The translations under genes and the position numbers were made by a program. A stretch of 15,740 nt of DNA from Gemmatimonadota bacterium (GTDB taxonomy: Bacteria > 4572-55 > J002), in NCBI GenBank assembly GCA_003697105.1, contig RFFQ01000061.1:1-15740 (forward strand), written 5' to 3'. Each line of letters starts with the position of its first letter. The stretch's first letter is position 1. The notes beneath the pieces were generated by a model that was not told where the DNA came from, ran no database searches, and saw nothing but the letters and a program-made list of their open reading frames with translations. Shown here one piece after another: positions 547 to 12,259 of this stretch.

Positions 547-567
547 ACTGGGATCATTGATAGTTTA
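544..567 (-). terminator. Possible weak bidirectional terminator hairpin between convergent genes
   Basis: Inverted repeat TAAACT (544-549) and AGTTTA (562-567), with an inner ATC/GAT pairing, spans the two convergent stop codons. Read on the minus strand it is followed by a T-rich TTTATTTC. The stem is AT-rich and short, so this is only a suggestion for the end of the long minus-strand operon. Confidence 0.3.
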
Positions 568-2062
568 GGACATGAATCTTCATTTTGCCAATGAGGGGCA
601 GTAATTTCGGGTACTGGTCAAATTCACCTTCCAGCAATTTAAGATGGGTAGCATCGGCGATCATATCGCCGAACGTGGGGTCCATCGCCACCCATCGTGT
701 GCCTGTCCAAACCTCGGGCCACGCATGGTAATAAAAGGCATTGTCCAAATAGACAACGCCGAGCGCAATTCGGGTCGGAATACCCACCGCCCGGGCAAGA
801 GCGGTGAACAGCGTGGTGTGTTCGTTACAATCACCTTGCATTGTGCGGAGAACCTCAATTGCCGAAGGGATGCTCATGGTGGGCACTTTTTCCACGTGTT
901 TAAACACCCATTTTCCCAACCGATTTGCGGCAGACCAAGCCTGCGGATGGTCTTCTCCCAGAATCTGCCGGGCTAAATGGCGAATGGTATCAGCATCGGC
1001 TTGAATGAAATCGGTCGGCATTAGCCACGAGTCCAACCCGTGGGTATCTAACGGAAGGCAAAGGCTATCATTTAGGTCAGGGCGGGTTTGGCTTATTTTC
1101 ACCGTCACCGAACTATCTGTTCGGGCAAGGATCGTCTGCCGCTCTGTTTCCAGTAAAAATTGAGACCAATCAACCCCTTTTGAAACCAACCGGAGTGTCA
1201 CTGAGCGAGTAAAGCGGGAATCGGGAATGAGGCGGCTCACCGGAATAGACACATCCACCAACAAATCACTGGTAGTCGCTACAATTTCCGGTGGCGGGGC
1301 TATTTTCATCGCCGCTTCTTTGCTTTCCCGCAACATGACCAAGCCTAGCAAGGTTTCTTCCCGTTTGACACTCTGTCCGGTAGGGTCAATCCAGGTGTAA
1401 GAATCCATGCCATTCAGGGTCATGCGGATTTTAGTGGCATAAATGGTCTCTCCCAGGACGGTTAAAAGTGTCCGTTCAACCAATTCGACTTCCACGGGAG
1501 CGGTTTTCTGCGACAGCGGATCAAACATATCAAAGGTGTAGGTTTTACCGGGTTTTAGATCGAGATTGGGCACCATGTGTTCAAAAGCCAGTGGCATCGT
1601 AAATTTCCCTTTAATGGGAATATGCCGTTGGCTGTGTTGTCCGGCGGCATTGATGTCCAGCCGCAACATCTTTTCGCTAACATGACCCTCAAACTCCATC
1701 GTTTGACCGGCGGAAACCACTGTCATGGAAAAGTCAAGGGGGCGAAAATCCGGGCGAGTGTTGATGTAGCCTTCAATGCGGGTATCAAGGAGGTGTTGCA
1801 TTACCGGTAACCGCATGAACCAATTTTGCTCAAAGCGATAATTTCCATCCGGCAAAATATAAGTCGATGAACCGACAAAACCGATTTTGACTCCATCTTT
1901 GTAAACCCCCATCCACTCTTCGCGGGCTTCTAGTTGTGCGATCACGTTTTGGATATCCAGACGTTCATGTTTACCGCTATAAAATCGCTGGAGCAGCATC
2001 CCGATCAATACCAGCCAGATCAGGATGAACAGAACGTTGAGGAGTTTAAACGCCAGTTTCAT
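554..2062 (-). CDS. Membrane-anchored transglutaminase-like (papain-fold) protein
   Basis: A 502-residue protein with one N-terminal membrane segment (about residues 7-26, LLNVLFILIWLVLIGMLLQ), so probably anchored facing the periplasm. The middle (about 45-340) is beta-rich and I cannot assign it. The C-terminal domain (about 370-480) is a transglutaminase-core fold: GDCNEHTTLFTALARAVGIP, then HAWPEVW, then WVAMDPTFG, giving the likely triad Cys412, His446, Asp461. Bacterial members are usually proteases, amidases or peptide-crosslinking enzymes; the substrate here is unknown. The start lies 4 bases after the fabZ-like stop with no clear Shine-Dalgarno, suggesting translational coupling. It is the last gene of the long minus-strand run, so it may act on envelope components linked to the lipid product, but that is inference from position. 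Confidence 0.85.
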   Translation of the reverse strand: MKLAFKLLNVLFILIWLVLIGMLLQRFYSGKHERLDIQNVIAQLEAREEWMGVYKDGVKIGFVGSSTYILPDGNYRFEQNWFMRLPVMQHLLDTRIEGYINTRPDFRPLDFSMTVVSAGQTMEFEGHVSEKMLRLDINAAGQHSQRHIPIKGKFTMPLAFEHMVPNLDLKPGKTYTFDMFDPLSQKTAPVEVELVERTLLTVLGETIYATKIRMTLNGMDSYTWIDPTGQSVKREETLLGLVMLRESKEAAMKIAPPPEIVATTSDLLVDVSIPVSRLIPDSRFTRSVTLRLVSKGVDWSQFLLETERQTILARTDSSVTVKISQTRPDLNDSLCLPLDTHGLDSWLMPTDFIQADADTIRHLARQILGEDHPQAWSAANRLGKWVFKHVEKVPTMSIPSAIEVLRTMQGDCNEHTTLFTALARAVGIPTRIALGVVYLDNAFYYHAWPEVWTGTRWVAMDPTFGDMIADATHLKLLEGEFDQYPKLLPLIGKMKIHVLNYQ

Positions 2063-2066
2063 GAGC

Positions 2067-2489
2067 TTATGGTTCGACTAGGGTACAACTAAATTCAACG
2101 CTGGCAACACGCTTTCCGGCTACCCGAACAGTGCCTTTCATAAAGTAAGCACCGCCGATGGTTTCGACCAGCTCGACCGTCATTTCCATCGTATCCCCCG
2201 GGCGAAGAAACCGTTTAAACTTGGCATTTTGGAGCCGGGTCAGGGCGGGGATTCCTGCTTTTTGATCCGGCAAGGCTTTTTTGAGGAAAATCGCACCGGA
2301 TTGAGCAACTGCCTCGCAAATTAATACGCCGGGCATGATCGGATTACCGGGCATGTGACCCTTAAAGAAAGGTTCATCCTGCCGCAAGGTGCGCCGGGTG
2401 CGGATCGAATTCCCGGTCAGTTCAACAATTTCATCCACAAATAGAAACGGTTCGCGCTGCGGGATGGCGTCGTAAATATCGGTGTTCAC
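2067..2489 (-). CDS. fabZ: FabZ-type 3-hydroxyacyl-ACP dehydratase (hotdog fold)
   Basis: A 140-residue single-hotdog dehydratase, normal FabZ length. It would remove water from 3-hydroxyacyl-ACP to give trans-2-enoyl-ACP. Recognisable FabZ features in order: IPQREPFLFVDEI (9-21) in place of the usual LPHRYPFLLVDRV, then FFKGHMPGNPIMPGVLICEA (41-60) with catalytic His45 and Glu59, then FKRFLRPGDTM. The start is GTG at 2487-2489. It is supported by a Shine-Dalgarno GAGGA about 7-8 bases upstream on the minus strand. It lies 31 bases after the FabG-like gene and 4 bases before the transglutaminase-like gene. The setting beside a ketosynthase, ACP and ketoreductase suggests a dedicated copy for the cluster's product rather than the housekeeping enzyme (inference). 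Confidence 0.9.
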   Translation of the reverse strand: MNTDIYDAIPQREPFLFVDEIVELTGNSIRTRRTLRQDEPFFKGHMPGNPIMPGVLICEAVAQSGAIFLKKALPDQKAGIPALTRLQNAKFKRFLRPGDTMEMTVELVETIGGAYFMKGTVRVAGKRVASVEFSCTLVEP

Positions 2490-2520
2490 AGGTTATCCTC
2501 ACTTAATAGAGTGAATAATA

Positions 2521-3261
2521 TCAAAGCCCACCGGTAATCTCTAAGACCGTACCAGTGATGTAACTCGCCTCTTGAGAGGCTAAAAAGAGTACACCCGCGG
2601 CAATTTCCGCCGGTGTACCGAATCGTTTCAGCGGGACTTGGTTTTTATATAATTTTTTTTGTTCCGTGGAAAGATCGGCAATCAATTCAGTCTCAACAAA
2701 GCCTGGAGAGACACAATTGACCGTGATGTTGCGCTTGGCAACTTCCTTAGCAAGGGACTTGGTTAAGGCAACCTGCCCCGCTTTGGAAGCGGCATAATTC
2801 GCTTGTCCCGCAAAACCATGCTCGCCAGAAGGCGACGTAATATTAATAATCCGCCCGTAGCGATGTTTCATCATCGCCTGCACCGCAAATTTACACATGT
2901 GATAGGTACCGGTCAAATTGGTGTCGATGACCTGTTGCCATTGTTCTGGGGGCATCATGGCGAGCACCGCATCTTGACGAATACCGGCATTGTTAATGCA
3001 GATATGAATTTGGTTATACTCGGTTTCGATTTTTTCAAAGAAGCTTTTGACGCTTTTGTAGTGGGTAATATCAAAATTATGTAAATTTAGATTATCAGCT
3101 TGACTCCCCTGCGCTGCTTTGAACGCTGTTGCCGCCGCGTGATTGCGGGCGTAGGTTGCCAATACCGTCGCACCGGCACTTAAAAACGCGGCCGTGATGG
3201 CGCCCCCAATCCCGCGCGTACCGCCGGTGACAATAACAACTTGATCCGTAAAATTGAACAT
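2521..3261 (-). CDS. fabG: FabG-type 3-oxoacyl-ACP reductase (short-chain dehydrogenase)
   Basis: A 246-residue classical SDR, standard FabG length. It would use NADPH to reduce 3-oxoacyl-ACP to the 3-hydroxy form. The cofactor motif TGGTRGIG is at residues 12-19, NNAG at 90-93, catalytic Asn115 in DTNLTG, Ser143 in ITSPSGEHG, and Tyr156/Lys160 in GQANYAASKAG. VNCVSPGFVETEL and the C-terminal YITGTVLEITGGL also match FabG closely. The ATG has a good Shine-Dalgarno (AAAGGA) upstream. The gene stands 47 bases after the first CrtI-like gene and 31 before the dehydratase. General SDR activity on another substrate cannot be excluded, but the neighbours and the FabG-specific motifs favour acyl-ACP. 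Confidence 0.9.
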   Translation of the reverse strand: MFNFTDQVVIVTGGTRGIGGAITAAFLSAGATVLATYARNHAAATAFKAAQGSQADNLNLHNFDITHYKSVKSFFEKIETEYNQIHICINNAGIRQDAVLAMMPPEQWQQVIDTNLTGTYHMCKFAVQAMMKHRYGRIINITSPSGEHGFAGQANYAASKAGQVALTKSLAKEVAKRNITVNCVSPGFVETELIADLSTEQKKLYKNQVPLKRFGTPAEIAAGVLFLASQEASYITGTVLEITGGL

Positions 3262-3308
3262 AACTGATCCTTTAGATTAAAATGGAAGGGATATACCGAT
3301 AGACACCC

Positions 3309-4712
3309 CTACGCGCGAAGATATTTATCGACGTTATTACTGGTGATCACCCCGTAGTTGATCGCCCCCAACCAGCCAGACATGATGATCGCCACCGAAC
3401 CGGCATGATATAAGCCGGGCACTTGTTCCGGCAAACCCTGACTGATTTTAAGCCCTTCAAACTTAGTACCAAAAGAGGTTCCCGCGGGGTGAAGGGTATA
3501 GTGCTTAAAGGTACAGGGTGTGGAGGCTTCGAGGTGGTCCACTTTGGCACGAATATCCGGCAAATACTTCTCCAGACAATTTAGCGTATCTTCAATCAGA
3601 TGGTCTTTTGCCTGTTGATATTCCGCTTTGCTAAGCCGGTTCCAATCGTCAAAACGGGCGTTGGTGGACGAGACAATCGAAAACTTTCCCGACCGAAGGG
3701 TATCATAATAGACCGAAAATGTCCGGCTGGTGACCTTCATATCCAGCATAGCATCCGTGTTATATTCTGGAGCCGTGGAAGTGAAAATCAAGTCGCCAAT
3801 GTATGGAATAGATTCGCCTTGCCGGATACCAATATACACCTGACAGGAGCTGGTATTAACCCGTACCTTGCGGGCTTCTTCAATAAAATCAGGCGAAAAA
3901 TATTCCTCTCCGGTGAGCTTAAAAATGGTGGATAACACGTTGGCGTTGGAGAGTACCGCTTTGCATTTAATAACCCGTCCATTTGCCGCAATACCGGCCA
4001 CTTTACCCCCCTCTACAATCACTCGTTCCACCCGAACATTTTTCCGCAGGTCAACCCCGTTGGATTTGAGCACCTTGACCATCTCTCCGATAAGCTGATC
4101 CGTGCCATAATCAAAGGTAAATACCCCTTTATTCATAAAATTGGAAAAGACAATTCCGTACGATATAGCGGGATCGTCCAGTGTTGAGCCGTTGGCATAG
4201 GTGATCGGCTCCATCAGCAATCGCCAGACATCCGTACGTCCGGGGAAAAATTGTTGGAATAACTCGCGCGTGGTCATTTGCTGGTCATCATAAAAATTCA
4301 TGCTCCGGGCGGTATCAAAAAAATTTTCGACCGTTTGGGGGTCTATCCCAAATTTATCAACCATAATCCGGGAGAAGTCTTTCCGATCAAACGTCGTTTC
4401 CAGTTTGAATTGCGGGTTATCAAAAATCACACCTTTCAGTTGATGAATATGACTGGCAATCTCCTTCGTCCAATATTTCCGGCACGATTTGACCATCCCA
4501 TACGGGAATCCGTGCAAGGAAATATCAAAAATATGCCCACCCTTACGGTGAAACCACGTCGCTAAACCACCAAATTGGTAATGATGCTCCAATAAGAGGA
4601 CACTATGCCCGGCTTTCGCTAAAATATTAGCAGAAGTCAAGCCTCCAAGCCCACTACCGATGACCACCACGTCATAATAATCCTTTGCACCTTTTAAAAA
4701 ATCTTTTGCCAT
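3309..4712 (-). CDS. CrtI / retinol-saturase-like FAD oxidoreductase (copy 1)
   Basis: A 467-residue flavin-dependent oxidoreductase of the phytoene desaturase / retinol saturase superfamily. The N-terminal Rossmann fold is [19 protein letters not shown] with GSGLGG at 19-24 and the ribose-binding acidic residue at Glu42 ([12 protein letters not shown]). The C-terminal FAD-binding segment is [22 protein letters not shown]. These enzymes add or remove hydrogens, or isomerise double bonds, along long conjugated chains. No phytoene synthase or other carotenoid gene is visible, so the substrate may be the acyl chain made by the neighbouring ketosynthase set (inference). Shine-Dalgarno AAAGGA lies about 8 bases before the ATG. 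The protein clearly differs from the other copy just upstream, so this is not a recent duplication. Confidence 0.85.
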
Positions 4713-4726
4713 TCGTGAATTCCTTT

Positions 4727-4770
4727 GAGTTTTACGAGTTTTACGAGTTTTATGAGTTTAGAAGTTTGAT
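4727..4770. repeat. Degenerate 9-bp tandem repeat (GAGTTTTAC units) between the two FAD genes
   Basis: GAGTTTTAC at 4727-4735 and 4736-4744, GAGTTTTAT at 4745-4753 and GAGTTTAGA at 4754-4762 form four adjacent 9-base units that decay through the following bases. The array fills most of the 69-base gap between the two CrtI-like genes and abuts the Shine-Dalgarno of the downstream gene. No protein reading of it is convincing. Confidence 0.75.
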
Positions 4771-4781
4771 GCGTTTGGGAG

Positions 4782-6173
4782 TTATTGTAGTACATGCAAA
4801 TTTGCCATAGAGATACCACTAAGCATTGCGCCGACAATACCCAAAAAGCCTTGATCCGTCCCAATGATAAAGAGATTCTTAAAAGGTGTTCGACCGTCTT
4901 TGACCTTATCGGGGGCACCATAAACCGCTCCGTTGATATGACCCGTATACCGCTGGATGGTTAGCGGAGTGAATGCATCTGTATAAATAACATGGTCACG
5001 AAAAGGAGGGATCAGTTGCTCTACCGCGTCGATCATCTGGCGGATGACCCGCTCTTTGGCGGCATAATAAGCTTCTGAATCTGATTGAAGTGATTGCCAC
5101 ACCTCAAAATTGGAGATACAGGTTAATCGTAGCAAATTATCCTTTAAGGGACGGTCATACTGGTAATTATTGGGCGAACAAATCACCCCACTTTTAACAT
5201 CTACTAAACCCTCGGCTTTGCGATACCGGAATTGTTCCCCCAAATTATAAAAGGTAATCGTTGCGTCATGTCCCCAATCCGCCGGAGGTTGGTCTAGCAC
5301 AAAAATCGTCTCGATAAATGTCATTACTCCGGCATTGGATTGAGGGTTCGTCACCGGCAAGGGGTCGATCAACGCCAATGTTTCATAATAACCGGCGGAG
5401 GAAAGAATTTTATCCGCGGTTAATATCTCACCATCTTCAAGTTCAACAGCTTGGATCCGGTCATCGGTGCATTTTAAAGATCGAACTCCGGCACGCATCC
5501 GCATTTCACCACCCTGTTTCCGATACTGGCGGACAAGCGCACTCGTTATTTGCCGGACACCCTGCCACGGCCGTGCAAATCCTTCATTAAAAATACTTTT
5601 GAACATGATTACAAACTGCCCGAATTCCATATCATCTTCTATTGCGCTGCCATAGTACATTAGCGGGCAAAAAAGCATATCGATCAATAGCGGATTGGAT
5701 AAATAGCGGGATACGATGTTCCGTGCCGATACCGGTTTGCGTTGTAGGTTTAGTTCGTCATAACTTAAAATTATGTCAACTAAATTATGGAAACCTTCCA
5801 TCTGATCCGGAAAGTGTAACCGTACCTGAGCCACCAATTCATCAAAATTATTGGTAAAGCGCAACCGGCAATTTGGAAAGAGAATCTCTGAATAATTCTG
5901 CTCCCGAAGATCAAACGCTTCATAAGGAAGTTTAAGTTGGCGCAACAGTTTATTCAACGGGGCACGGCGTGCGGTTTTGGGAACGAAATTCGTCATTGCG
6001 TGCAACCCCACATCAAACGAATAGCCATCTTTTGTGTAAAACGAATTAAGCCCGCCGTACATGTAATGCTTTTCCAGAATCAGGACGGTTTTATCGTAGT
6101 AGGCACAACGGACACCCGCCGCCAAACCAGACATCCCTGCCCCAATGATAATGACATCATAATGGTTTGCCAT
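4782..6173 (-). CDS. CrtI / retinol-saturase-like FAD oxidoreductase (copy 2)
   Basis: A 463-residue member of the same superfamily as the next gene downstream. The Rossmann motif YDVIIIGAGMSGLAAG has GAGMSG at 11-16, Glu34 follows in LILEKHY, and GGL is at 40-42. The C-terminal segment NLFIIGTDQGFLGIVGAMLSG resembles the retinol-saturase type (NLF-x-x-G-x-D...G-x-V-G-A). The first ~60 residues carry SFDVGLHAMTNFV, a pattern also seen in phytoene desaturases. The ATG overlaps the end of the CNNM gene by 17 bases and has a Shine-Dalgarno-like AAGGGAGA in front, so the two are probably translated from one message. Its reaction (desaturation, saturation or isomerisation of a polyunsaturated chain) cannot be read from the sequence. 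Confidence 0.85.
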   Translation of the reverse strand: MANHYDVIIIGAGMSGLAAGVRCAYYDKTVLILEKHYMYGGLNSFYTKDGYSFDVGLHAMTNFVPKTARRAPLNKLLRQLKLPYEAFDLREQNYSEILFPNCRLRFTNNFDELVAQVRLHFPDQMEGFHNLVDIILSYDELNLQRKPVSARNIVSRYLSNPLLIDMLFCPLMYYGSAIEDDMEFGQFVIMFKSIFNEGFARPWQGVRQITSALVRQYRKQGGEMRMRAGVRSLKCTDDRIQAVELEDGEILTADKILSSAGYYETLALIDPLPVTNPQSNAGVMTFIETIFVLDQPPADWGHDATITFYNLGEQFRYRKAEGLVDVKSGVICSPNNYQYDRPLKDNLLRLTCISNFEVWQSLQSDSEAYYAAKERVIRQMIDAVEQLIPPFRDHVIYTDAFTPLTIQRYTGHINGAVYGAPDKVKDGRTPFKNLFIIGTDQGFLGIVGAMLSGISMANLHVLQ

Positions 6174-7383
6174 CTCGGTCTCCCTTCGCTTCTGCCGATA
6201 AACGAGAATTCAAACCAAGTGCGGCGGCGCGTTTTTCCCATTGCTTGCGCGCAAGTGCTTGCATATCTTCAACTTCATCCATTTCATCGACAATTTCCAT
6301 ACCAAGTAACGTTTCAACCACATCTTCTAAGGTCACCAACCCCTCCGTTCCCCCATATTCATTGATCACCAAAGCAATATGCTGGCGTTGATCCAGCAAA
6401 AATTCCAACAAATTGGAGAGCCGCATCTCTGCTGGAACGGGTGGTAAATGCCGCTTCAAGTGAGCCAGCGGAATCTGATCCCGGTTTTGGACTTTTGCCA
6501 ACAGCATATCCCGTTTTAGGACAAAACCGGTCATATCATCGATATGTTTGCCATAGACCAAAACTCGGGAAAATGGATTTTCCGGATCGGCTGCCCATGC
6601 TTGCGCAACGGTTATATCCTCCTGAAAGGCATGAATTACCGTCCGCGGGGTCATAATATCTTTTGCCCTTATAAGACCAAAGCGAAATAAATTAGAAATA
6701 ATACGCGACTCATGTTCATGGATTTTACCCGTCTCCTTACCCATACCTGCCATAGCGAGAAATTCATCCCGGCTGAACACCTGAACGGGGTCATTTCGGG
6801 AAATCCAGCGGGTGAGTCGCTCTGAAATCCAGATTAACGGGTACAATACCCAAATTAATCCTTGCACAAAATACGCTGTTGGACGCGCCAGCGCCCGCCA
6901 ATAAACGGCACCTAACGTTTTGGGGATAATTTCAGATAAAAATAGAATGGCAAGCGTCATCAACGCTGAAAATAGGCCGAACCAAGCGTTACCAAACACG
7001 ATGGTTGCTTTCGCTCCGGCACCGATAGCACCGACCGTATGAGCAATGGTGTTCAATGTTAGAATCGCCGCAAGAGAGCGGTCAACATTCGCCAGTTTTA
7101 ACTGCTTCAGTTTTGCCGCCAAATGGGGTTGGTGAGTATCCAAACCGGCGATATAAGATGGGGTAATACTTAACAACACCGCCTCTGAAACCGAACAGAG
7201 AAACGAAAAGATCAAGGCTAACAGAATGTAAAGAACCAACATCACAACATCCCAGCGGGTGTAATCTGCGGCATTACCATCGCCCAGATTACCGGTACCC
7301 ACAGCAAAAGTACTGCTGGCGATGATCACCCCCACCACGACAAACCATGCTTGGATCGAGTATTGCCTCACACTTAGCCTCAC
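6157..7383 (-). CDS. CNNM (DUF21) membrane protein with CBS pair, hemolysin/CorC-like
   Basis: A 408-residue inner-membrane protein of the CNNM/CorC group, linked in characterised members to magnesium or other cation export. Order: an N-terminal hydrophobic segment (12-28); the CNNM domain with hydrophobic stretches around 45-65, 105-130, 134-155 and 168-188, containing SEAVLLS and LSEIIPKTLGA; then two CBS motifs (about 243-300 and 312-362; MTPRTVI and VINEYGGTEGLVTLEDVVE). The usual C-terminal CorC_HlyC transporter-associated domain is missing; after the CBS pair come only about 45 charged residues. The annotated start is GTG with no clear Shine-Dalgarno. A start at Met48, directly before the CNNM domain, is an alternative. 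Its place between the ACP and the FAD enzymes is odd and may be chance or a membrane support role. Confidence 0.85.
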   Translation of the reverse strand: MRLSVRQYSIQAWFVVVGVIIASSTFAVGTGNLGDGNAADYTRWDVVMLVLYILLALIFSFLCSVSEAVLLSITPSYIAGLDTHQPHLAAKLKQLKLANVDRSLAAILTLNTIAHTVGAIGAGAKATIVFGNAWFGLFSALMTLAILFLSEIIPKTLGAVYWRALARPTAYFVQGLIWVLYPLIWISERLTRWISRNDPVQVFSRDEFLAMAGMGKETGKIHEHESRIISNLFRFGLIRAKDIMTPRTVIHAFQEDITVAQAWAADPENPFSRVLVYGKHIDDMTGFVLKRDMLLAKVQNRDQIPLAHLKRHLPPVPAEMRLSNLLEFLLDQRQHIALVINEYGGTEGLVTLEDVVETLLGMEIVDEMDEVEDMQALARKQWEKRAAALGLNSRLSAEAKGDRDGKPL

Positions 7384-7417
7384 CGGTATAACGTGCTAAA
7401 AATCACAGCATAAATAA

Positions 7418-7459
7418 TGATTAAACCTTGCAAAGGTCAATTTCTGCAAGGTTTAATCA
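7418..7459 (-). terminator. 15-bp perfect inverted repeat: terminator, attenuator or processing hairpin
   Basis: TGATTAAACCTTGCA (7418-7432) and its exact reverse complement (7445-7459) surround a 12-base loop in the 102-base gap downstream of the ACP gene. On the minus strand the hairpin is followed by TTATTTATGCT, a moderately T-rich tail rather than a strong U-tract. It may end or reduce transcription after the ketosynthase-ACP genes, stabilise the 3' end of that part of the message, or bind a regulator. Confidence 0.6.
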
Positions 7460-7485
7460 AAAGTAGATCATATTGAGATGCCGGT

Positions 7486-7755
7486 TTACCGGTCACCTTC
7501 ATAAGGAACATCTTTTAATTTATCATAAAGATATTCTGCACTGCTGTTTAGTGTTGCTAATTCCATGTAATCGTCCTCTGGAACTTCAATTTTATAGCGT
7601 TTCCGAAGTTCCATCACAATATCCAGAAAGTCCATAGAATCGAGGTCCATTTGCTCCCGCAGGCGCACATCCGGATCGATATTACTTAAATCTTCGTCGG
7701 GGACAATATCCTCTACAATGTCTAGCACCAATTTTTTGATTTCCTCTTTACTCAT
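7486..7755 (-). CDS. Acyl carrier protein
   Basis: An 89-residue acidic carrier protein. The phosphopantetheine site is in MDLDSMDFLDIVMEL, with Ser40 as the attachment residue (DSMD instead of the common DSLD). Four-helix ACP spacing and length are normal. A strong Shine-Dalgarno (GAGAGGG) precedes the ATG. It sits 59 bases downstream of the ketosynthase gene, the usual ketosynthase-ACP pairing, and probably carries the growing chain for the ketosynthase, FabG and FabZ of this cluster. The ELRKRYKIEVPEDD segment is seen in ACPs of specialised pathways, but I would not name the pathway from it alone. The genome presumably has a separate housekeeping acpP. Confidence 0.92.
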   Translation of the reverse strand: MSKEEIKKLVLDIVEDIVPDEDLSNIDPDVRLREQMDLDSMDFLDIVMELRKRYKIEVPEDDYMELATLNSSAEYLYDKLKDVPYEGDR

Positions 7756-7814
7756 TACACCCTCTCTAAACTGAAAATGATAAAGTAAATCGCCAGTATT
7801 TAGCGGTCATAAAA

Positions 7815-9071
7815 TTAGGTTTCGTCATACTTTTTGATAATTACCACCGAATTAATTCCCATCATTCCAAATGAGCTCGCCAAAATATAATTAACGTGCC
7901 CGATCTCTTTCGGTTCGTTCAGCACTAAATTAACACCTTCACAATTTGGGTCGAGGTCATCCACATTAATGGTCGGATGAACAATTCCATCATCAAAGGA
8001 GGGCAGATTTCCCGCCAATTCCAGCGCACCGGCAGCACCCATCGCATGCCCAATATAGCTTTTTGTATTGTTAACATAAGGGCGGCGATCCGGTGAAAAG
8101 ATAGATCGAATCGCTTCACACTCCTGAATATCACCGGCGGTGGTGCCTGTAGCATGCGTATTAACAATATCGATCTGTTCGGGTTGAAGATGTGCTTTTT
8201 GGAGCGCCAATTTCATGCACTGGGCTTGCTGGATGGGATTTGGCAATACGGGATCGGTGGCATCCGAAGTGATTCCATACCCGACGAGTTCACCGTAAAT
8301 ACGGGCACCTCGTGCTTTCGCATCGCGAAGGCGTTCTAACGTATAAACACAGCCGCCTTCCGAGATTACAATCCCATTTCGATTCATGTCGAACGGGCGG
8401 CTTGCTTTTGCCGGGTCTGTATGTTTCGCTAAAGCACCTTGACTTTGAAAAGCGGCAAAAATACCAAAGGTATGGATACTTTCGGAAATTCCTCCGGCGA
8501 GCGCGAGGTCAACTTCCCCCAACCGGAGCATTTGCACCCCTTGGATCAAGCCCATATTTCCGGCGGCACATGCCGCGCCGATGGTGTAGTGCGGTCCCGT
8601 GATGCCCATATTCAAAGTAACTTCGCCTGCCGGATTATTGGCAACTGTGCGGGGGTTGTGATGGTGTGTCCAGAACCGGACATCATAATCATATTGAGAC
8701 AAATTATAAACTTCATTCTCGGTTTCGACATTGCCGTGTTCGGTGATGCCCAAATAGACACCGATTCGAGCGGTATCCAGCGTTCCGATATCCAATCCGG
8801 CATCCTTCATTGCCTCATGGGCACAATAAACCGCTACCGAACCCGCCCGTGTCCCTCGCCGGATTTCTTTTCGATTTTGATATTTGCGCGGGTCAAAATC
8901 ACATACGCCAGCGATAGTTTTGCCAATGTACCGGATTTCGTATTCTTGGACACCGGAACGGCGTTCCAGCAAGCTCCGCCGGAATGTCGTTAAATCATTA
9001 TTGGAACCGGGGGCGGTCAAGCCAACTCCGGTAATCACAATCCGTTGTATATCTGAATTCTTCTGTTCCAT
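7815..9071 (-). CDS. FabF/KAS II-type beta-ketoacyl-ACP synthase with altered gate loop
   Basis: A 418-residue condensing enzyme of normal FabF length that would join malonyl-ACP to an acyl-ACP with loss of CO2. The Cys-His-His triad is complete: Cys168 in GAACAAGNMG, His306 in NTHATGT, His342 in KSYIGHAMGAAGALE, with Lys337 also kept. So it is an active ketosynthase, not a chain-length-factor partner. The C-terminal gate loop, normally NSFGFGGTN in FabF, reads SSFGMMGIN (residues 399-407). The gating Phe is replaced by Met and a Gly is lost, which may alter the acyl pocket. No second KAS is nearby. The ATG has only a weak ribosome site. The 129-base gap upstream could hold its own promoter. 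Related enzymes occur in aryl-polyene, PUFA-like and ladderane-type sets. Confidence 0.9.
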   Translation of the reverse strand: MEQKNSDIQRIVITGVGLTAPGSNNDLTTFRRSLLERRSGVQEYEIRYIGKTIAGVCDFDPRKYQNRKEIRRGTRAGSVAVYCAHEAMKDAGLDIGTLDTARIGVYLGITEHGNVETENEVYNLSQYDYDVRFWTHHHNPRTVANNPAGEVTLNMGITGPHYTIGAACAAGNMGLIQGVQMLRLGEVDLALAGGISESIHTFGIFAAFQSQGALAKHTDPAKASRPFDMNRNGIVISEGGCVYTLERLRDAKARGARIYGELVGYGITSDATDPVLPNPIQQAQCMKLALQKAHLQPEQIDIVNTHATGTTAGDIQECEAIRSIFSPDRRPYVNNTKSYIGHAMGAAGALELAGNLPSFDDGIVHPTINVDDLDPNCEGVNLVLNEPKEIGHVNYILASSFGMMGINSVVIIKKYDET

Positions 9072-9200
9072 AAGCTATTGAAAGTAGTCTAAAAAGGTTA
9101 TTAGGTCTTTAAGTTCACTGGATTCAACATTTCAGTTACCCATTAATTGCAAAAATGCGGCGTTAATGTAATACGCCTACCGGTCTCTGGCAACAGTTTT
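9072..9200 (-). other. Intergenic gap between oleD-like and ketosynthase genes
   Basis: This is the longest non-coding gap inside the minus-strand run (129 bases). It holds a small GGCGT/ACGCC stem (9159-9163 with 9173-9177) followed on the minus strand by a T5 run. Nearer the ketosynthase is a loose TTGAAT...TAATAA promoter-like pair. Neither is strong. A break or a secondary promoter between the oleC-clpS-oleD and KAS-ACP units is possible. Confidence 0.3.
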
Positions 9201-10196
9201 TCAACGGTGCTGCCGGTAGTAGGCGAATAAGCGGTCAAGCGCCGTTTGCGGGTCAATTTTTGGCGAAAAATGAAAGTCACGCCGGGCGGCGGCGGTATTA
9301 AAATAGTGGGATTTTGCAAGTTGGGAGGCTAAAAAGCGGGTCATTTTAGGCTCTGATGAAATGCCAAACATGCGGTATATCCCTTCCATTATCTGCCCGA
9401 TCCGGTAAGCTGTTGGATAGGAAATTGTCCGCTTAATGGGTGGTAAATCTAAATTTTTTAACACATTTGCGATCCAGTCCCACAGGTTAACAGGGGTATC
9501 ATCATTGATAAAATAACACTTCCCCGCCACCGCAGAACCCGGGTATAAGGCGTCCGCCGCTTGCAGATGTCCTTCTGCCACATTTTCCACGTAAGCAATA
9601 CTGACCTGATTGGTGCCATCACCAACTTGCACCAATTGATTACGTTTTGCACGCTGAATCAAGCGCGGGATCAAATGATTATCGCGTGGACCCCAAATTA
9701 AATGTGGGCGCAGAGATACCGTCGCCAGCCCATGCTGCCCGTTCGCGGCGATCACAGCTTGTTCCGCAAGCGCTTTTGTATGGGGATAATGAGCCAGATA
9801 ACAAGCTGGGTAGGGCAAGGATTCATCACCGTTTATAATGTCATCATCACCAAAAACAACCGAAGGTGAACTGGTATATATCAGTTTGGAGACCCCGTTC
9901 TGCCAGCATCCCTCAATAACGTTTTGAGTACCCGTGACGTTGATCGAATAGAACGTATCCCATTTACCCCACACTCCCGGTAGTGCGGCGGCATGAAAGA
10001 CACAATCCATACCTTGGCACGCCGCCATAACGGCGTCACGCTGACGAATATCCGCCTGAAACGTTTCCACCCCGAGGCGTTCAAGTTCAGGATACGCCCC
10101 TCGACTCAAAGAGCGAACCTGCCATCCCCGGCTTAAACAGCCTTCCACAAGGTAGCGACCCAAAAATCCGCCGCCGCCGGTAACTAAAACATTCAT
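9201..10196 (-). CDS. oleD: OleD-like NAD(P)-dependent 2-alkyl-3-oxoalkanoate reductase (extended SDR)
   Basis: A 331-residue extended short-chain dehydrogenase. The cofactor motif TGGGGFLG is at residues 6-13, Ser110 lies in YTSSPSVVFG, and Tyr137/Lys141 in HYPHTKALAEQ form the active site. Several stretches match the OleD subgroup rather than general sugar epimerases: SLSRGAYPELERLGVE, VFHAAALPGVWG, SLRPHLIWGPRDNHLIPRL and GKCYFINDDTPV. OleD reduces the 2-alkyl-3-keto acid made by OleA to the 2-alkyl-3-hydroxy acid, the substrate of OleC. A Shine-Dalgarno GAGGAG lies about 10 bases before the ATG. The gene is in the same run as the OleC-like gene, separated by clpS. A 3-beta-hydroxysteroid dehydrogenase-like role on another bulky lipid is the main alternative. 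Confidence 0.82.
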   Translation of the reverse strand: MNVLVTGGGGFLGRYLVEGCLSRGWQVRSLSRGAYPELERLGVETFQADIRQRDAVMAACQGMDCVFHAAALPGVWGKWDTFYSINVTGTQNVIEGCWQNGVSKLIYTSSPSVVFGDDDIINGDESLPYPACYLAHYPHTKALAEQAVIAANGQHGLATVSLRPHLIWGPRDNHLIPRLIQRAKRNQLVQVGDGTNQVSIAYVENVAEGHLQAADALYPGSAVAGKCYFINDDTPVNLWDWIANVLKNLDLPPIKRTISYPTAYRIGQIMEGIYRMFGISSEPKMTRFLASQLAKSHYFNTAAARRDFHFSPKIDPQTALDRLFAYYRQHR

Positions 10197-10229
10197 GTGC
10201 GGGTCACTCCTCTGTCTCGCATCCTGAAC

Positions 10230-10583
10230 TCATTCCTCACCACCGCCATACGCGGGCTCTATGATGGCACTCATCGAGCCTTTACAGCGGGGAATCCACG
10301 GATCGGGACCATAAGCGTGGATTTGGTCACGTTTCAGTTCGGCTCGCTCTTTGGTAGTGGTATCCACAATTACCCGTCCGGTATCGTCCACTTCGCACGC
10401 CATCAAATACGCCAGTTCGGCACTATGTCCGAAAATATCCATCAGCATCACGATCACATACTCATACGTATGATCGTCATCGTCCAGCAACACCACATGG
10501 TACGGTGGGATTTGGCTTAGATCGGGACGGCGGGGCTCAATCTTCGGTTGGGTAATTTCGATGGGTTCGATAGTAGTTGGCAT
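10230..10583 (-). CDS. clpS: Divergent ClpS, ATP-dependent Clp protease adaptor
   Basis: I place the start at the ATG at 10581-10583 (protein MPTTIEPIEITQP..., 117 residues). The upstream ATG at 10622 would overlap the oleC-like gene and add an unconserved tail. The ClpS core is PPYHVVLLDDDDHTYEYVIVML followed by a helix and GRVIVDTTTKERAELKRDQI. ClpS delivers N-degron substrates to the Clp AAA+ unfoldase. Compared with E. coli ClpS, the VNDD pocket motif is LDDDD, the AVHYQG segment carrying the pocket His is CEVDDTG, and an extra loop (AYGPDPWIPRCKGSM) precedes IIEPA. Substrate choice may therefore differ. It starts 11 bases after the OleC-like stop and ends 33 before oleD, so it is embedded in the operon. 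Shine-Dalgarno is weak. Confidence 0.85.
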   Translation of the reverse strand: MPTTIEPIEITQPKIEPRRPDLSQIPPYHVVLLDDDDHTYEYVIVMLMDIFGHSAELAYLMACEVDDTGRVIVDTTTKERAELKRDQIHAYGPDPWIPRCKGSMSAIIEPAYGGGEE

Positions 10584-10594
10584 GATCGTATGAT

Positions 10595-12259
10595 TTACGC
10601 TGCCACGTGTTGGGCAGCCCAAAGGGCAAGTTTTTCACGAAAAATTTTGGCGTTATGCCGGATATCTGTTGGGAAAACACCGGGATAAATTAAAACGGTT
10701 TTGATCGATTTTGTCAACGGATTCGCCGCCGCCATCTTCTGTATGTCGTCAACCAGTTGGGTATCGCTGATATTGCGGGTGCTTTCCTTTTGCTTTTCAA
10801 TCAGGATTACCGGTTGTTGGTTTGGGCGTTCGCCAACCCCCACTAAAGCGGAACGAAATACGGCAGGATGGTCATTAAAAATGCCTTCGCACGGAACGGT
10901 AAACAGGGTTCCACTGGCGGTAATTACGCGATGGCTCTTCCGGCCGCAATACCAAATTCGACCCAGCTCGTCAAAATAGCCCACATCGCCGATGCGATGC
11001 CGGATCGTACCCTGAGCGTCATAAATTTTTGCCAACCGGGTATGGTCTGGGCGTTGATAATAAGCGGGCGTCACTATATCGCCTTTGATGACGATTTCCC
11101 CGATAGTTCCGGGCGGCACACAAAGCGACCCATTCCACGTTTCAATGGGTTCATCACTAATGCGGATAATCTTCACCTCAACATCTGGGAAGGGCATCCC
11201 GACGCATGTTCCAGCACCACGTTTGGTTTTTTCCGCCGTTTCGGTCACAACCTGACTCCCCGCAATTGAGGCGACCGGTAAGGCTTCTGTGGCGCCATAC
11301 GCCGTATGTGTATCCGCCGCCGGGGTTAAAATATGCCGGTAAAAGCGCTCCAAAATATCCGGACGAACCGGCGCGCCGAACATCAAAATCCGTTTGAGAG
11401 AAGGCAATTTTATCTGATGGTCCACACTATATTTCCCGACACGATCCCAGATGGCAGGTGAGCCTGCCGCGGAGGTAATCCCTAAATTTTCAATCGTTTC
11501 TACGATTTTATGCGGGTCCACCTCTGCCGGACGGGTCGGGTCCATATCGGGAATAACACACGTCATACCCATTGCCACATCAAATAGGGCAAATAGCGGG
11601 AATCCGGCAAGGTCGAGTTCACCTTCCTTAATCTGGTAAAAATCTCGGATATAGCGCACTTGGGCGTCAAAAATACCGTGGGTGAACATCACGCCCTTCG
11701 GTGGACCGGTTGAACCGGTAGTAAAAATGATCGCGGCGAGGTCATCCGCCTGTGTCTCCGCTAACGGGAACTCTGGACACGATGTCGGGCGGATCGAATC
11801 CAATGTGATCCCCGGTAGAATCCCCTTTTTACCGACAATCACCGCTTGTTTAACGGTCTGAAATGGTTTCCGGTAGATCAATTTTGCCACATGGGCACGT
11901 GGTATGCCGATTAAGGCGTCCGGCTGTACCTCCGCCACACAATTGAGCAGATTATCTTTACCCATACCCGGGTCAATCAAGACCGGCACCGTCCCCATTT
12001 TGAATAACGCAAATGTGAGGGCAATAAACTCTAAACTTGGCGTCACAGCCAGCAGGACTTTTGTCCCCCGTGAAATTCCAATGGAATGCAATCCGTGACA
12101 GTAGCGGTCACACTCTTGATTCAATTGCCGGTAGGTCAGGTGAGTATATGCAACCCGTCCGGTATGATCGCGCCCTTCCGGGAAGACAACGGCTCGCTGG
12201 TAAGGTAATTTTTGCGCCATTTCCGGCAGATATTTCGCAATGTTACATAATGTCGGCAT
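10595..12259 (-). CDS. oleC: OleC-like AMP-dependent beta-lactone synthetase (ANL superfamily)
   Basis: A 554-residue adenylating enzyme. ANL motifs: phosphate loop FTTGSTGPPKG (179-189), YGATE (321-325), GDVGYFDELGRIWYCGRK (424-441), and the C-terminal catalytic Lys538 in DIRHNAKIFREKLA. Features of the OleC subgroup rather than ordinary acyl-CoA ligases are FALFDVAMG, VIPDMDPTRPAEVDP (236-249), GAPVRPD, GAGTCVG and the DIRHNAKI ending. OleC activates a 2-alkyl-3-hydroxy fatty acid with ATP and closes it to a cis-beta-lactone, which OleB then decarboxylates to an olefin. No OleB or OleA is in this window. It is the first gene of the minus-strand run, about 40 bases below a strong sigma70-like promoter. 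The upstream ribosome site is weak. A fatty-acyl-AMP or CoA ligase loading the ACP is the alternative. Confidence 0.85.
   Translation of the reverse strand: MPTLCNIAKYLPEMAQKLPYQRAVVFPEGRDHTGRVAYTHLTYRQLNQECDRYCHGLHSIGISRGTKVLLAVTPSLEFIALTFALFKMGTVPVLIDPGMGKDNLLNCVAEVQPDALIGIPRAHVAKLIYRKPFQTVKQAVIVGKKGILPGITLDSIRPTSCPEFPLAETQADDLAAIIFTTGSTGPPKGVMFTHGIFDAQVRYIRDFYQIKEGELDLAGFPLFALFDVAMGMTCVIPDMDPTRPAEVDPHKIVETIENLGITSAAGSPAIWDRVGKYSVDHQIKLPSLKRILMFGAPVRPDILERFYRHILTPAADTHTAYGATEALPVASIAGSQVVTETAEKTKRGAGTCVGMPFPDVEVKIIRISDEPIETWNGSLCVPPGTIGEIVIKGDIVTPAYYQRPDHTRLAKIYDAQGTIRHRIGDVGYFDELGRIWYCGRKSHRVITASGTLFTVPCEGIFNDHPAVFRSALVGVGERPNQQPVILIEKQKESTRNISDTQLVDDIQKMAAANPLTKSIKTVLIYPGVFPTDIRHNAKIFREKLALWAAQHVAA

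Follow-up and report, generated by a model that had tools for sequence, protein, structure and literature searches.

A dedicated fatty-acid module with two CrtI-fold flavoenzymes beside oleC and oleD: a probable Pfa-free pathway to polyunsaturated hydrocarbons

Gene content of the locus

The stretch of DNA analysed here (the window) is contig RFFQ01000061.1 of a Gemmatimonadota bacterium, 15,740 nucleotides long, and makes up the entire contig C128 of a 4.18 Mb genome that is 97% complete and belongs to a thinly sampled phylum. Eleven co-directional open reading frames (ORFs) run along its minus strand, from position 12259 down to 554, and encode in turn an OleC-like protein, ClpS, an OleD-like protein, a beta-ketoacyl-acyl carrier protein synthase (KAS), an acyl carrier protein (ACP), a CNNM/CBS protein, two CrtI-fold flavoenzymes (Crt2, then Crt1), FabG, FabZ and a transglutaminase-like protein (Table 1). 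The fatty-acid and Crt genes form a module that probably replaces Pfa, a known supplier of polyunsaturated chains to Ole enzymes, in a pathway to polyunsaturated hydrocarbons through OleA, OleB, OleC and OleD (OleABCD), the product and the Crt chemistry being predicted.

Neighbouring genes in the run are at most 129 bp apart, with overlaps of 28 and 17 bp and gaps of 33, 129, 59, 102, 69, 47, 31 and 4 bp. A preliminary description of the stretch had given this run of closely spaced genes and the types of enzyme that they encode, and ORF and domain analysis confirms both. The domains recognised are AMP-binding (OleC), 3beta-HSD (OleD), ketoacyl synthase, PP-binding (ACP), FabA/FabZ, a FabG-type short-chain dehydrogenase/reductase, two of the Amino_oxidase/CrtI fold, CNNM with CBS, a transglutaminase core and ClpS.

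Table 1. Features of the eleven-gene run, with positions in the window (aa, amino acids)
Feature	Position	Strand	Evidence and remarks
oleC-like, olefin beta-lactone synthetase family, 554 aa	10595..12259	-	NF006754 688 bits; homologues 42-58% identical
ClpS adaptor gene, probable passenger	10230..10622	-	PF02617; listed from TTG start, true start may be internal
oleD-like 2-alkyl-3-oxoalkanoate reductase, 331 aa, YxxxK motif	9201..10196	-	NF042422 372 bits, NF042423 344 bits
Dedicated beta-ketoacyl-ACP synthase (KAS), 418 aa	7815..9071	-	FabF model 308 bits, below cut-off
Acyl carrier protein, 89 aa, Ser in DSM motif	7486..7755	-	PF00550 44 bits
CNNM/CBS membrane protein, 408 aa, probable passenger	6157..7383	-	PF01595, PF00571
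Crt2, CrtI-fold FAD enzyme, 463 aa	4782..6173	-	PF01593
Crt1, CrtI-fold FAD enzyme, 467 aa	3309..4712	-	PF01593
FabG-type 3-oxoacyl-ACP reductase, 246 aa	2521..3261	-	TIGR01830 286 bits (cut-off 298); NF009466 250 bits (cut-off 222)
FabZ-type 3-hydroxyacyl-ACP dehydratase, 140 aa	2067..2489	-	NF000582 117.5 bits (cut-off 113)
Membrane-anchored transglutaminase-like protein, 502 aa, probable passenger	554..2062	-	PF01841 79 bits

Ole enzymes and the fatty-acid module in the source genome

The OleC-like protein scores above the cut-off of NF006754 and reaches 563-574 bits with the models for olefin beta-lactone synthetases, the next generic ligase lying at 190 bits. For the OleD-like protein the two OleD equivalog models come first and HpnA follows at 131 bits; the position of oleD beside oleC is conserved in relatives, that is, in the other module-bearing genomes described below. 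These Ole-family scores, together with the OleC homologues found in module genomes, rule out an ordinary ligase and speak against an ordinary epimerase, although OleD stays below its equivalog cut-off of 580. The two points on which the preliminary description had said that it might fall were an unrelated origin of these two proteins and a lack of conserved gene order; OleC belongs with the Ole families, as OleD probably does, and the order is conserved.

The window holds neither oleA nor oleB, as had been described, but the Ole set of the genome is not limited to OleC and OleD. A search of the genome for KAS III proteins gave two matches, an ordinary FabH on contig C81 and an OleA-type protein on contig C87 (NF006720, 458 bits; cut-off 285). 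Aligned with structure 3row, the latter conserves the catalytic Cys, Glu, His and Asn of Xanthomonas campestris OleA, which are taken here to have the roles established for OleA. Directly after oleA lies oleB, a haloalkane-dehalogenase-type alpha/beta hydrolase 44-64% identical to the oleB products of linked clusters. The search for oleA and oleB that had been proposed thus yields both, side by side, and the pair rules out an incomplete Ole pathway: with the probable OleD, the OleABCD set is complete in the genome and split over two loci.

Because the genome encodes OleB, and with it the full Ole set, an olefin is to be expected rather than a beta-lactone. The clustering of oleC and oleD in the window without oleA and oleB might suggest a beta-lactone natural product or a ketone as the end product, since clusters without oleB produce beta-lactones (PMC7064751); however, with an oleB of the linked-cluster type standing beside oleA in this genome, such an end product is very unlikely. 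Of the two outcomes named in the preliminary description, beta-lactone or olefin, the olefin is the one that stands.

The KAS and the genes that follow it are a dedicated fatty-acid set. The KAS shares 61-71% identity with members of a discrete KAS subfamily from other phyla, and no more than about 37-38% with KAS proteins outside that subfamily; its catalytic set (Cys168, His306 and His342, aligned with 1j3n) is intact, and two further FabF proteins, both over the family cut-off, are encoded elsewhere in the genome. The ACP is about 53-67% identical in most relatives and occupies the same place after KAS; in relatives FabG is about 53-62% identical and in the same position, and FabZ is conserved after Crt1 or FabG. 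The preliminary description was right that the window has no enoyl reductase, but this does not extend to the genome, in which contig C147 ends within a fabI of the module type (68% identity in the portion that remains) and a second, distant enoyl reductase lies on contig C26. No match to PfaA (TIGR02813) was found in the source genome at E<=1e-60.

KAS, ACP, FabG, FabZ and CrtI-like genes also occur in pigment clusters, and the window FabG scores high with the FlxB model (255 bits, though below its cut-off of 340), so that a conjugated polyene pigment like the aryl polyenes or flexirubins, beside which the Ole genes would stand by chance, has to be weighed. But a chain-length-factor paralogue, an aryl starter gene and outer-membrane export genes were not recognised in the window, and the FabI that accompanies the module in most relatives suits chains having saturated positions. 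A pigment is, on these grounds, a highly improbable product.

Crt1 and Crt2 are 62-68% and 44-58% identical, respectively, to their counterparts in relatives. Their AlphaFold2 models (predicted local distance difference test, pLDDT, 87.8 for Crt1 and 90.4 for Crt2) have the flavin adenine dinucleotide (FAD) amine-oxidase/CrtI fold with a GxGxxG motif (PF01593; fold matches 4rep and 4dgk), and the best fold match of both is the gamma-carotenoid desaturase 4rep (Z 31.3 for Crt2). Both proteins score far below the family cut-offs of CrtI, CrtD and CrtISO, and their genomic context is one of acyl-ACP genes, not isoprenoid genes. The fatty-acid double-bond isomerase 2b9w is also among the fold matches of Crt2 (Z 23.6), so that isomerase and desaturase chemistry alike have precedents in the superfamily, and Crt1 and Crt2 may be either. 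A 44% match to Crt1 upstream of oleA in one relative (L083) is, by its domains, a glutamate-synthase-type small subunit and not a third Crt gene.

Linkage to ole genes in other phyla and replacement of Pfa

A scan of named genomes with an alignment of Crt1 turned up at least 561 relatives, and the loci of the best 80 were compared; the taxon names are those in the record titles, which may be wrong for metagenome-assembled genomes (MAGs). The 80 come from Planctomycetota, Nitrospinota, Nitrospirae, Verrucomicrobiota (Opitutales), Chloroflexota and one deltaproteobacterial MAG. The usual order of the module is KAS-ACP-Crt2-Crt1-(FabG)-FabZ-FabI, with FabI present in most relatives and a phosphopantetheinyl transferase (PPTase) gene after FabI in four loci examined.

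The ole genes lie within about 10 kb of the module in 17 of the 80 loci, and their orders differ. Two Nitrospirae MAGs have a single run, oleA-oleB-oleC-oleD-KAS-ACP-Crt2-Crt1-FabG-FabZ-FabI; the order is oleC-oleD-KAS-ACP-Crt2-Crt1-FabZ-FabI in Phycisphaerae, Crt1-FabZ-FabI-oleA-oleB in Opitutales and oleA-KAS-ACP-Crt2-Crt1-FabG-FabZ-FabI in Chloroflexota, whilst further arrangements, with the module upstream of ole, downstream of ole or divergent from it, are found in the Planctomycetota sample described below. The conserved synteny for which the preliminary description had proposed a search is present in relatives from several phyla. The window follows the relatives' order oleC-oleD-KAS-ACP-Crt2-Crt1-FabG-FabZ, with genes for ClpS, CNNM and transglutaminase-like proteins added. 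Within the window's own phylum one other genome was searched, and it lacks the module. Nitrospina sp. LS_NOB (L164) has the module together with an oleC, the only ole gene in the 20 kb inspected.

The three added genes are not common to relatives and are probably passengers. The ClpS gene stands between oleC and oleD, overlapping the end of oleC, and was not found there in other loci; no CNNM/CBS gene lies between ACP and Crt2 in the relatives' loci; and the transglutaminase-like gene, which closes the operon 4 bp from fabZ, was not seen in relatives' clusters. The plus-strand genes that flank the run are unrelated; they encode a HEAT/YccV protein, one protein that matches no Pfam family and what was judged by eye to be an aminotransferase.

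OleC homologues (42-58% identical) are present in 49 of the 53 genomes that carry the module. C31:9 hydrocarbons are known from some Planctomycetes. In an even set of 195 Planctomycetota genomes OleC was found in 82, Crt1 in 51 and KAS in the same 51, every one of which has OleC. PfaA, in turn, is present in 30 of the 31 OleC-bearing genomes of this set that lack the module, and in only one of the 51 that have it, as a match below the cut-off. In 16 of the 30 genomes PfaA and OleC are no more than 25 kb apart, and in 25 of the 51 the distance between Crt1 and OleC is at most 20 kb. Outside the Planctomycetota sample, PfaA over the cut-off was found in none of 26 module genomes, the source genome included. 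Cultured bacteria too, such as Pelagicoccus (L106) and Cerasicoccus (L098), have the module and ole genes but no pfa. Fisher tests of co-occurrence, in which kinship is ignored, give p values of 1e-25 and 4e-20.

Only one genome of the Planctomycetota set, L198, has OleC but lacks both PfaA and the module, and its OleC groups with those linked to Pfa. Two records that bear the title Candidatus Kuenenia stuttgartiensis, from assemblies of 5.4 and 7.4 Mb, carry Crt1 and OleC; their titles are probably wrong, which makes them unusable for statements about anammox bacteria.

Could the module and the Ole enzymes be two independent lipid pathways that simply share their inheritance, the module making a membrane polyunsaturated fatty acid (PUFA) or another polyene and the Ole enzymes using ordinary fatty acids? 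The Pfa-type and module-type genomes are divided by a single branch of the OleC tree, and in roughly half of the genomes the module and ole loci are distant from each other or lie on separate contigs, as is the case here for oleA and oleB. However, the module and ole genes have been joined physically again and again, in different orders and in several phyla, no genome amongst the 195 Planctomycetota has the module without OleC, and Pfa is present where the module is absent. Independent pathways are thus an unlikely explanation. The view that a polyunsaturated chain made by the KAS, ACP and Crt proteins is passed to the Ole enzymes, already put forward in the preliminary description, is strongly supported by the linkage across phyla, the co-occurrence with OleC and the presence of Pfa where the module is missing.

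Several observations weigh against a Pfa-free pathway feeding OleABCD. OleC and OleD of the window fall below the equivalog cut-offs for Xanthomonas and Shewanella (900 and 850 for OleC, 580 for OleD), and in the source genome oleA and oleB are on another contig, unlinked to the window cluster. In three Chloroflexota MAGs and a deltaproteobacterial one, all of which carry the module, no OleC was found. Anammox operons with CrtI-like and type II fatty-acid synthesis (FASII) genes, which may differ from the module, gave no ladderanes or PUFA in Escherichia coli (PMC4790861). In the OleC tree a single branch, with full support, sets all Pfa-linked rows apart; since the division between module and Pfa is one split on this tree, the Fisher p values overstate independence and are not taken as proof. 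Common descent accounts for part of the pattern, and what the data show is a pair of Ole groups, each with its own supplier, and not a switch of supplier made independently dozens of times.

In the three Chloroflexota MAGs (L076, L086 and L110), no OleC was found in the genomes and oleA directly precedes the module. These bacteria may stop at a polyunsaturated ketone, or the MAGs, which are small (1.6-2.2 Mb), may be incomplete.

Proposed pathway and comparison with known systems

The window locus most likely constitutes half of a pathway to polyunsaturated hydrocarbons. KAS, ACP, FabG and FabZ, with FabI encoded elsewhere, would form a dedicated, oxygen-independent, dissociated fatty-acid assembly line, which the FabI and PPTase encoded beside the cluster in relatives would also serve. 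Crt1 and Crt2 would insert or reposition double bonds to give a polyunsaturated medium-chain acyl thioester. OleA would couple two such chains head to head, OleD would reduce the ketone, OleC would close the beta-lactone and OleB would decarboxylate it, leaving a long polyunsaturated olefin of the C31:9 type.

C31:9 is thought to derive from two 16:4(4,7,10,13) chains via OleABCD (PMC4882568), and Pfa with OleA in E. coli yields a 31:8 ketone (PMC6463001). If 16:4(4,7,10,13) is built up by two carbons per cycle, a trans-2 to cis-3 isomerization (at C6 and C12) would have to alternate with a trans-2 to cis-2 isomerization (at C8 and C14), and the remaining cycles would involve full reduction, which fits FabI. 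Crt1 and Crt2 could be, for example, trans-2 to cis-2 and trans-2 to cis-3 enoyl-ACP isomerases. The need for two types of isomerization in turn would suit two distinct flavoenzymes plus FabI, although this is put forward as a proposal only. That the two flavoenzymes create cis double bonds on ACP-bound chains, within an oxygen-independent type II synthase that is a non-homologous replacement of Pfa and supplies C31:9-type precursors via OleABCD, is offered as a tentative scheme, somewhat short of an even chance.

Passages of Rattray et al. (PMC2649909) describe FASII clusters with adjacent phytoene-dehydrogenase-like genes in Kuenenia and Desulfotalea psychrophila, and propose an extended FASII as a route to PUFA; these passages do not discuss ole genes. 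They also report that D. psychrophila has C31:8 and C31:9 hydrocarbons, no ladderanes and no known PUFA polyketide genes. The FabF, ACP, FabZ and phytoene-desaturase-like types of the anammox clusters, and the synteny of these to D. psychrophila given there, are the basis of the cyclised, ladderane-like chain suggested in the preliminary description, to be processed afterwards by Ole enzymes. The analogy is one of published gene types. Against it, no radical-SAM (S-adenosylmethionine) or SAM methyltransferase gene was recognised amongst the window genes, the module is widespread outside anammox groups, and D. psychrophila, on the same account, makes its hydrocarbons without ladderanes. A comparison of the window ACP and FabZ with solved structures, in which an anammox link was sought, gave ordinary ACP and FabZ as the best matches. 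Cyclised chains of any kind therefore find no support and have very little probability, and the interpretation first given for the locus is, as a whole, partly supported.

The source of the polyene chain in D. psychrophila has been open since at least 2009, as far as the passages of PMC2649909 go, and a Pfa-free module that travels with ole genes is a concrete candidate. If the pathway proposed here is correct, life would have a second oxygen-independent route to polyunsaturated chains, and the pathway may throw light on the initial steps that have been suggested for ladderane lipids. No paper linking the KAS-ACP-Crt module with ole genes was found in a literature search outside which most subscription journals lay.

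The likenesses to known systems are each partial. Crt1 and Crt2 share their fold and FAD-binding motif with the CrtI/carotenoid desaturase-isomerase superfamily (4rep, 4dgk), but at about 15-20% identity, and form two separate subfamilies alongside acyl-ACP genes. The anammox and Desulfotalea clusters, compared by gene types alone, likewise have FabF, ACP, FabZ and CrtI-like proteins and have been proposed, in the passages cited, to make PUFA or polyunsaturated hydrocarbons (PMC2649909); the window differs in having no recognised SAM enzymes, and its module is directly linked with ole genes. All four enzymes of the OleABCD pathway of Xanthomonas, Shewanella and Geobacter are encoded here too, OleD as a probable member and OleA with its catalytic residues conserved, but at two loci, and a dedicated FASII-CrtI module is attached to oleC and oleD. 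The Pfa-Ole clusters, such as pfaDABC-oleABCD-pfaE of Geobacter bemidjiensis (PMC4882568), also place a producer of polyunsaturated chains beside ole genes, and a PPTase recurs in relatives of the module. In contrast to those clusters, PfaA is absent here, and the supplier would be a set of separate FASII enzymes with two CrtI-fold flavoenzymes.

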